This document shows positions 7,870-29,102 of a DNA stretch of 47,887 bases, piece after piece. The stretch lies in IMG/VR virus record IMGVR_UViG_3300036760_000293, positions 1 through 47,887 of that record; one strand, written 5' to 3'. A program made the translations under genes and the position numbers. The stretch is from a virus. Below the pieces are notes generated by a model. That model saw only the letters and a list, made by a program, of their open reading frames with translations, had not been told where the DNA came from and made no database searches. How positions within the stretch are numbered: position 1 is the stretch's first letter; each line of letters starts with the position of its first letter.

Positions 7870-8267
7870 TGGCAGCAGAATGGAAAAAAATATTATTAGA
7901 AGGTGATGCTGGTACAAGCTGTAAAGTATTAGTTAGTGCCAATGACACCACGGAGGGTTATCTCGGTGCTAAAATAGTTGCGGGAACAAGTATGGAGGAG
8001 ACCCTGAGTGGTGCTGGAGATGAAACATATACCCTCGGGGTTATAGCAGATGGAATTACTGCGGCACAAATAGCAGATGATGCTGTTGGTTCGGAACACA
8101 TCGAAGCGTTAAGTGATGATTTGGATTTTGCTGGTAATGAGGCAACAGATATGGCAGTTCATAATGTTGCCGACGCTACTGCACGAAATGGACTTACACC
8201 GGTTCTTGGTAAAATTGTGTTTCAAGTGGATACTTTACACCCATATATTTGTACTGCAATTGCATAA
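7869..8267 (+). CDS. Fibre-associated virion protein, 132 aa
   Basis: The start MAAEWKKILLEGDAG is paralleled by MALEWKKIP in the next gene, so the two share an attachment or assembly motif. The rest is low-complexity Asp/Ala/Gly shaft sequence (ITAAQIADDAVGSEHI), as found in phage fibres. Stop at 8265-8267, nine bases before the next ATG. It is probably a fibre or baseplate-side subunit. Confidence 0.6.
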   Translation: MAAEWKKILLEGDAGTSCKVLVSANDTTEGYLGAKIVAGTSMEETLSGAGDETYTLGVIADGITAAQIADDAVGSEHIEALSDDLDFAGNEATDMAVHNVADATARNGLTPVLGKIVFQVDTLHPYICTAIA

Positions 8268-8276
8268 GGATTTTAT

Positions 8277-9035
8277 ATGGCCCTCGAATGGAAAAAAATA
8301 CCCACCGTTCCCGTTCCTGTTGCCGATGGTGGAACAGGGCAAGTTACTGCACAGGCGGCTATTGATACTTTGACAGCAGTAACGGGAGCAACCAATGAGC
8401 ATGTACTTACAAAAGATACTGCTACTGGTAACGCTATTTTTAAGGCTGCTGTTGGCGGCGGTGGAGACGATGTTAAGGTTGCTATTGATGCTGGGGCTAC
8501 CGCGGGGTATTTAGGGGCGGCTTCGAACGATGGAGTATTAAGAACAGGTTCCGGACTTACTTATACCGATGGCGGGGATTATATAACAATAGATACTGTT
8601 GCAAAGCAAATACCATCAGGTGGTTTATATCTCGATGCCGCGGTAAACAACCATGCCAATGATAGTGTTTTTCTTATCCCTCTTGATACAAAAAAGTCTG
8701 GATTTACTGATGGGATAGAATCTACAGGAGACCATAGAATAACACCAGGCGTTGCCGGTTACTATAGTATTCACGGTTGTATTTGCTGGTCGAGTTCATT
8801 TATTAATAATTCATATTACCAGGCACGGGTATACATTAGTACCAATTTAGTGGCTATTAACACATCGAATCCAAACGCGGGTGGGGATACGTTTGTTCAC
8901 ATTAGTCTTAATCCAGTGTATCTTAGTGCTTCTGATTATATAGAACTATTCGGATGGAAACATGGGGATACTACCGCAGCCGATGTTGCAAGTGGTTCTT
9001 ACAGTACTTTTCTTTCTGTTCAAAGAGTTAGATAA
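8277..9035 (+). CDS. Tail fibre with C1q-like tip, 252 aa
   Basis: The N-terminus begins MALEWKKIP, followed by the fibre motif VADGGTGQVTAQAAIDTL. Residues 60-120 form a Gly/Ala/Asp shaft. The last 120 residues resemble a C1q/TNF jelly-roll head: GVAGYYSIHGCICWS, YQARVYISTNLVAINT, LNPVYLSASDYIELF, and a final TFLSVQRV strand. Such tips bind host surfaces, so this is the best receptor-binding candidate. Ribosome site AAGGATTTT precedes the ATG. Confidence 0.7.
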   Translation: MALEWKKIPTVPVPVADGGTGQVTAQAAIDTLTAVTGATNEHVLTKDTATGNAIFKAAVGGGGDDVKVAIDAGATAGYLGAASNDGVLRTGSGLTYTDGGDYITIDTVAKQIPSGGLYLDAAVNNHANDSVFLIPLDTKKSGFTDGIESTGDHRITPGVAGYYSIHGCICWSSSFINNSYYQARVYISTNLVAINTSNPNAGGDTFVHISLNPVYLSASDYIELFGWKHGDTTAADVASGSYSTFLSVQRVR

Positions 9036-26226: not shown

Positions 26227-26307
26227 TTAAAAAACCGGCAGGGCAGGCAGACGCCACATCCGCAAACACAAAGTCCAGGCCTGGTTAAGCGTTAGTTTTT
26301 TTGTCAT
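26227..26307 (-). CDS. Micro-protein, 26 aa
   Basis: ATG at 26307 has GGAGACAAATCG in front and lies about 30 bases after the promoter at 26345-26372, so it is well placed for expression. The chain is KKLTLNQAWTLCLRMWR plus a Pro/Leu tail. Its end is unusually G+C-rich and echoes the nearby RNA-like element (see 26395-26635). Confidence 0.5.
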   Translation of the reverse strand: MTKKLTLNQAWTLCLRMWRLPALPVF

Positions 26308-26344: not shown

Positions 26345-26372
26345 ATTATATCACATTATTCCTGTAAGTCAA
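26345..26372 (-). promoter_or_regulatory. Sigma70-type promoter, leftward
   Basis: TTGACT (26372-26367), a 16-base spacer and TATAAT (26350-26345). It follows the T-tract of the structured element and precedes the 26-aa micro-gene, so it restarts leftward transcription. Confidence 0.8.
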
Positions 26373-26394
26373 GGAAAAAATCTTTTCGAACAAT

Positions 26395-26635
26395 AAAAAA
26401 CAGGCAGGGCGGGCAGGGTTGGCATTACCCGCTACCTGCTAACACACGATCCCGGGCATGCTTGTCAGTTCGAGTTTCCAAGACGGTTCGATACGATGAG
26501 TTTCCAGGCCCTTTATCCCAAGCCGTCACCCGGGATCACCTAATCGCCGGGTTCTTTATGATAAACGGTTTAGTCATGTGCCTGCCCCGTCCCGTCGTTT
26601 CACACGCCCCGCTGCCCTGCCTGCCGGGAGAAGGA
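26395..26635 (-). ncRNA. G+C-rich structured RNA-like element
   Basis: This stretch is far richer in G+C than its neighbours and has no good gene. Ends 26401-26410 and 26614-26623 are perfect inverted repeats (CAGGCAGGGC/GCCCTGCCTG). Inside are GATCCCGGG (26448-26456) with CCCGGGATC (26529-26537), a continuing GCTTG/CAAGC helix, an A+T stem at 26558-26577, and a duplicated GAGTTTCCA (26472, 26498). On the minus strand the last arm is followed by six T, like a terminator. A mobile MITE-like element is the alternative. Confidence 0.55.
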
Positions 26636-26644
26636 AAATGATAT

Positions 26645-27034
26645 TTACATACCACCTATATATTTAGGAAATACAGCCTTTTTAGTTACAATCACATCCG
26701 CATCTTCGTATAATCCTATTGACTGGCTTCCAACGTGATTCACCCATTCTTTTTTAATCCTGCATTTTACAATTTTGCCTGGAAAATCATAATCTGCGTT
26801 TTCTTTTGCGTCTTTGTAATGTAACCAAAAATGACCACCACCCCGATACCTGTTAAAACCCTTAATAGTGTTTTGTTCGAATTTCACGGCCCCTGCATGA
26901 AGAGGCATTAATTGAACACAGGTAAGCCATTTTCCTTTATATTTCTCTACGACCTTCCATGCAACAAATTCACCCGGTAACCTGGACAATATCTTCTCTC
27001 TCTTTTCCTTACTATATACCTTTTCCAAACACAT
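26645..27034 (-). CDS. Hypothetical protein, 129 aa
   Basis: Begins CLEKVYSKEKREKILSRLPG, then EFVAWKVVEKYKGKWL, a pattern seen in phage proteins of unknown role. It has aromatic-rich middle segments (GGGHFWLHYKDAKENA). GGAGAAAATGAT precedes the start. It is the last gene before the structured element. Confidence 0.65.
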   Translation of the reverse strand: MCLEKVYSKEKREKILSRLPGEFVAWKVVEKYKGKWLTCVQLMPLHAGAVKFEQNTIKGFNRYRGGGHFWLHYKDAKENADYDFPGKIVKCRIKKEWVNHVGSQSIGLYEDADVIVTKKAVFPKYIGGM

Positions 27035-29074: not shown

Positions 29075-29102
29075 ATTATAATACACATTTTCGAAAAGTC
29101 AA
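29075..29102 (-). promoter_or_regulatory. Sigma70-type promoter, leftward
   Basis: TTGACT (29102-29097), a 16-base spacer, TATAAT (29080-29075), placed between the 38-bp repeats and the ATPase gene. It fits the same pattern as 20317 and 26345. Confidence 0.8.

Follow-up and report, generated by a model that had tools for sequence, protein, structure and literature searches.

Several kinds of small noncoding element bounded by inverted repeats are known from phage and bacterial genomes. In a Wolbachia prophage, wDam-MITE-1 is a 217-nt MITE with 24-nt inverted terminal repeats and a 9-nt target duplication (PMC5447182), and domestication of MITEs has been suggested as the origin of the noncoding RNAs, flanked by terminal inverted repeats (TIRs), that the PLE satellite and several phages carry (PMC7567579). 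The G+C-rich block described here, from a virus of the IMG/VR collection, resembles wDam-MITE-1 in being about 220 nt long, noncoding, bounded by TIRs and inserted in a phage genome (PMC5447182), but its ends match over 10 bp rather than 24, it has an equivocal target duplication, and the searches turned up no family of copies. With the RNAs of the PLE satellite, P1, P7, N15 and P4 it shares a noncoding, inverted-repeat-flanked character and a phage-like genomic setting (PMC7567579); those RNAs are transcribed, however, whereas any transcript of the block is putative, and its sequence matches no annotated phage. The REP, BIME and REPIN sequences mobilised by RAYT/TnpA-REP transposases are likewise G+C-rich palindromic noncoding DNA with end motifs repeated in both orientations (PMC3116915, PMC8266576), yet REPs are about 20-40 bp long and present at high copy in host genomes, while for the block neither a multicopy family nor a transposase gene was seen. 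Intrinsic terminators, finally, also present a G+C-rich stem directly followed by a U tract and also occupy the space that separates one operon from the promoter of the next; the known ones have a short loop where the block has an apical domain of about 190 nt. The block thus looks like a modest, clearly bounded case of a type already described, resembling the MITEs and TIR-flanked RNAs of phages, although membership is not proven. The reading we prefer, and to which we give a probability of roughly 55%, is that a lineage-specific insertion brought in foreign G+C-rich DNA, about 225-240 bp long, noncoding and bounded by TIRs, which is MITE- or REPIN-like in character and now terminator-like.

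The block and its neighbours

The window, by which we mean the whole stretch of DNA analysed, is the complete 47,887-base virus record. It encodes a DNA polymerase, a UDG-family protein, an AAA ATPase and a PD-(D/E)XK nuclease, and its tail and head proteins gave weak matches only. Within it the block occupies positions 26401-26627 (ends approximate; 59% G+C; no strand assigned). An earlier note, made from the sequence, had described an island far richer in G+C than the rest of the phage and carrying no long gene, and both observations hold: 26401-26630 is the most G+C-rich 230-base stretch of the window, at 0.591 against a mean of 0.399 (sd 0.050); the block contains no ATG/GTG/TTG ORF reaching 60 aa, and a Pfam search with its open frames gave no match. 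The idea of a protein-coding remnant was dropped, Pfam and a tblastn search of plasmids both being without a match.

The genes on either side are on the minus strand, along which the order is a 129-aa gene, its stop, the right end of the block, the block, its left end, a T6 tract and a promoter. The 129-aa gene (26645-27034, minus), for a putative protein, stops just before the insertion. At the opposite, left edge is a phage promoter, TTGACT-N16-TATAAT (26345-26372, minus), with 11 of 12 consensus bases. The earlier note had overlooked this strong, conserved promoter just past the T tract; it had also missed two features described below, the left-end near-copy (26228-26250) and the relatives' empty sites. 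The promoter belongs to a near-consensus sigma70 family, seen in the window again at about 29075-29102 (minus) and also in contigs L004, L010, L013, L015 and L016, with a T/C-rich run ahead of the -35 box (TTTTTCNCTTGACN...TATAAT) and with positions conserved across this uncultured phage group.

Empty sites in related viruses

Several related contigs were located by way of the DNA polymerase and of a 421-aa protein encoded nearby. The orthologous interval is present in five of these viral contigs (L004, L010, L013, L015 and L016; 72-79% identity in the neighbouring protein), and the G+C-rich block is missing from the orthologous site in every one; when the block is omitted, the flanks of the window align to the relatives. 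All five show synteny of the promoter and the genes around it, and the promoter is retained throughout as TTGAC-N16/17-TATAAT following a T/C-rich run. On the other side of the site, the 129-aa gene retains its C-terminal peptide in L004, L010 and L013 (the full-length protein at 43% identity in L010; the KAxFPKYIG C-terminus in L004 and L013), and in these three the distance from the upstream stop to the -35 box is only about 20 nt. The upstream sequence of L015 and L016 differs from that of the window. A search for the block through the whole records of nine related viruses found no trace of it. At an identity of only about 70%, the relatives do not allow the exact ends of the insertion to be fixed.

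Because five relatives share the locus and the promoter without the block, it is best read, on this comparison, as a lineage-specific insertion and not as a conserved phage RNA. The absence of the block from relatives in which the flanks are kept also makes insertion in a single lineage far simpler than several losses. With few phages sampled, at about 70% identity, one might still propose that the element is ancestral and was lost independently in the relatives; this would require several lineages to have lost it at one site with the flanking gene end and the promoter intact, and we consider it extremely improbable. Under the insertion reading the block would owe its presence to transposition or recombination, and not to five losses elsewhere, and would have lodged in the gap that separates the 3' end of a minus-strand gene from the conserved promoter beyond it. 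The source of the inserted DNA was probably the host or another mobile element.

One of these relatives has an insertion of another sort: the DNA polymerase gene at L015:7400-8240 carries roughly 270 in-frame codons that are intein-like, starting with Cys and ending HN-S, and a second internal frame specifies an HNH-endonuclease-like peptide, VHHIDGNPKNND.

Inverted ends and the search for copies

The two ends of the block form a perfect 10-bp inverted repeat, with CAGGCAGGGC at 26401-26410 (plus) and, at 26614-26623 (minus), a right copy that reads GCCCTGCCTG on the plus strand. They coincide with the composition borders of the block, and a 10-bp match between its first 20 and last 30 nt arose in 0.05% of dinucleotide shuffles (p about 0.0005); the 10-bp inverted ends of the earlier note are thus confirmed. 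Throughout the window, only two perfect 10-bp inverted pairs are both G+C-rich and separated by 60-400 nt: the block ends and one other, in which the right end is shared and the left end is replaced by its near-copy, at 26237. This near-copy, TAAAAAACCGGCAGGGCAGGCAG (26228-26250, plus), matches at 21 of 23 positions (91%), includes the A6 and lies 166 bp from the left end, on the other side of the promoter; a 23-mer pair of equal quality appeared in none of 40 shuffles of the region. It encodes the C-terminus of a 26-aa ORF, MTKKLTLNQAWTLCLRMWRLPALPVF (26227-26307, minus), and we have only a suspicion that it truncated a formerly longer gene there.

These ends bear on two other explanations. 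The block could be a fragment of DNA from a host or another foreign source, for instance genic or intergenic, that entered by illegitimate recombination and has inverted ends by chance: its foreign composition, the empty sites of the relatives and the lack of copies are all compatible with this, and short G+C-rich GGCAGG motifs do arise by chance in unrelated phages, but the rarity in shuffles of 10-bp ends placed at composition borders, the recurrence of one end nearby and the failure of the open frames to match Pfam or plasmid proteins render it rather unlikely. Alternatively, a chimeric stretch might have been joined into the phage contig during assembly, as a sharp composition shift in a metagenome-derived record, with no match elsewhere, could suggest. 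We hold this to be very improbable, since both flanks belong to one phage locus whose order is conserved, an internal chimera of 225 bp with two breakpoints is itself unlikely, and a near-copy of one end sits outside the block.

The earlier note had left two options, a new phage noncoding RNA or a MITE-like repeat captured from a host. The second fits better, given the empty sites, the inverted ends and the near-copy, but it is unproven, no multicopy family having been found. The block does have the terminal inverted repeats of a MITE, and it is short and gene-free, with five relatives empty at the site. The evidence for a target-site duplication is equivocal: an 8-bp sequence, AAGGAAAA, occurs at 26371-26378 and at 26631-26638 (both plus), but its copies do not abut the inverted repeats, such a coincidence has a chance of about 4%, and the left copy also falls within the conserved motif upstream of the promoter. 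For want of a multicopy family and of a clear target duplication, then, a MITE is not proven.

Searches for further copies gave negative results. No second copy of the block was found in its own genome, and BLAST against phages, plasmids and E. coli returned nothing of note. In IMG/VR, patterns of the end motifs yielded either no matches or five without wider similarity, and the stem signature GATCCCGGG-N-CCCGGGATC picked out 14 loci, all unrelated. An exact 18-mer of the core, run against 257 Gb of GTDB genomes, hit three isolated chance matches of 18-19 nt; no copy appeared in either of two phylum samples, each made up of about 390-400 genomes and scanned without a positive control. Of further copies sharing its ends, such as a MITE would have in common with an autonomous transposon, only the 23-nt near-copy of one end within the phage itself was found; the reach of these negatives is limited, as the host may lie outside the collections searched and exact-pattern scans miss diverged copies. 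The block is accordingly a candidate mobile element only, a second full copy being absent everywhere searched; nor was a transposase found among the scanned phage proteins.

These scans also brought up other structured loci. A stem of GATCCCGGG...CCCGGGATC, G+C-rich and enclosing 68-69 nt, is present at L030:4705-4791, L033:937-1022, L034:1751-1836 and L040:3346-3432, viral contigs of 37-45% G+C, in two related forms that are not homologous to the block; it looks like another structured element. An intergenic G+C-rich stretch in a further viral contig (L007:1600-1742) has inverted ends, GGGCGGGCAGGCGG and CCGCCTGCCCGCCC, and an architecture similar to that of the block, with no wider sequence match. 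Its segment at 1724-1742 was considered as a homologue on account of a similar GGCAGGGCGGGCAGG end and rejected, the remainder being non-homologous.

Folding and a possible transcription stop

The inner repeats noted earlier fare unevenly. Arms of a 9-bp inverted repeat are present at 26448-26456 (GATCCCGGG) and at 26529-26537 (CCCGGGATC; both plus), and the block holds three inverted 9-mer pairs in all, a number reached by 0.55% of shuffles. The 9-bp stem extended by a second helix, as proposed, does form in the folds of the plus strand and of the DNA, but it is absent from the minimum-energy fold of the minus strand, in which the arms pair with other bases. The duplicated GAGTTTCCA is indeed there twice (26472-26480 and 26498-26506, plus), but not significantly so, 8.6% of shuffles reaching such a duplication. 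The proposed A+T stem, TTTAT-G-ATAAA, with its 1-nt loop, is trivial and no credible hairpin.

Folding of the whole element gave z-scores of -1.40 (plus strand), -1.64 (minus strand) and -1.28 (as DNA). These correspond to a folding energy that is ordinary for the composition. Since the end repeat is rare in shuffles and the folding z is ordinary, the ends are real and exceptional RNA structure is unsupported. Rfam offered no match at the gathering score and nothing credible at E<=5 (best E 3.4, far below the cut-off), and with no homologue found in the searches above either, a new phage noncoding RNA of conserved form finds no support. Two RNA-based candidates were also set aside: a retron-like noncoding RNA, suggested by the paired ends, as no reverse transcriptase occurs among the scanned proteins (small ORFs were only partly scanned), and a group II intron, raised by a GTGTG motif, to which Rfam lends no support.

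The ends pair stably in the minus-strand ensemble, where 26614-26625 pairs with 26399-26410 over 12 base pairs, 10 of them at a probability of about 1.0, and this closing stem runs directly into a U tract. As an isolated duplex the block ends have an energy of -25.2 kcal/mol (p 0.002 against shuffled ends). The T6 reported on the minus side is where it was said to be, as A6 on the plus strand at 26395-26400, directly after the closing stem. The ends thus have the G+C-rich stem and immediate U tract of an intrinsic terminator and lack its short loop, and a simple terminator scan did not call the block.

Such ends might also be those of a lineage-specific noncoding RNA born in the phage, or of a leader or 3'-UTR structure under selection, transcribed from the minus strand and finishing at its own 3' U tract. 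The stable closing stem followed by the U tract would suit it, as would an orientation that agrees with the direction of transcription, and L010 has a different structured-looking noncoding stretch just past the same promoter (8050-8372). Against it are the want of a homologue or Rfam match, a fold z of only -1.6, a composition foreign to the phage, and the absence of any minus-strand promoter-like site above the scan cut-off between the 129-aa gene and the block; we judge it unlikely.

We return to the inserted element, whose end stem and U6 probably serve as a transcription stop for the upstream operon, on the evidence of the modelled folds. In a transcript of the upstream minus-strand operon, the block ends would pair as a 12-bp G+C-rich stem abutting the U tract, the whole acting as an oversized intrinsic terminator of stem, apical domain and U tract; the operon would then end just ahead of the next promoter, which would be insulated. 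The further step, that a captured palindromic element has been domesticated as a lineage-specific regulatory RNA, whose closed stem and U-tract end both terminate the operon and yield a stable structured transcript, is in our view doubtful.

Two other noncoding features of the relatives may be recorded here. The stretch past the orthologous promoter in L010, roughly 320 nt long and directly adjoining it, contains several G+C-rich hairpins and a long ATGGAATTAAAT/ATTTAATTCCAT pairing (fold z -0.93); it has no Rfam match and is absent from the other relatives. A hairpin, ACAACAGGGAC...GTCCCTGTTGT, with a T run after it lies at L015:2460-2530, L016:1915-1985 and L013:6650-6724 with 75-93% identity, and is likely a conserved phage terminator.

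If the insertion reading is right, the locus is a clean case of a short foreign noncoding sequence taking up residence in a phage genome with little room to spare, an event made directly visible by the empty sites of the relatives. Pairing ends at the spot chosen could have made the block useful as a terminator, and those same ends could point to the host once a genome carrying the same repeat turns up.
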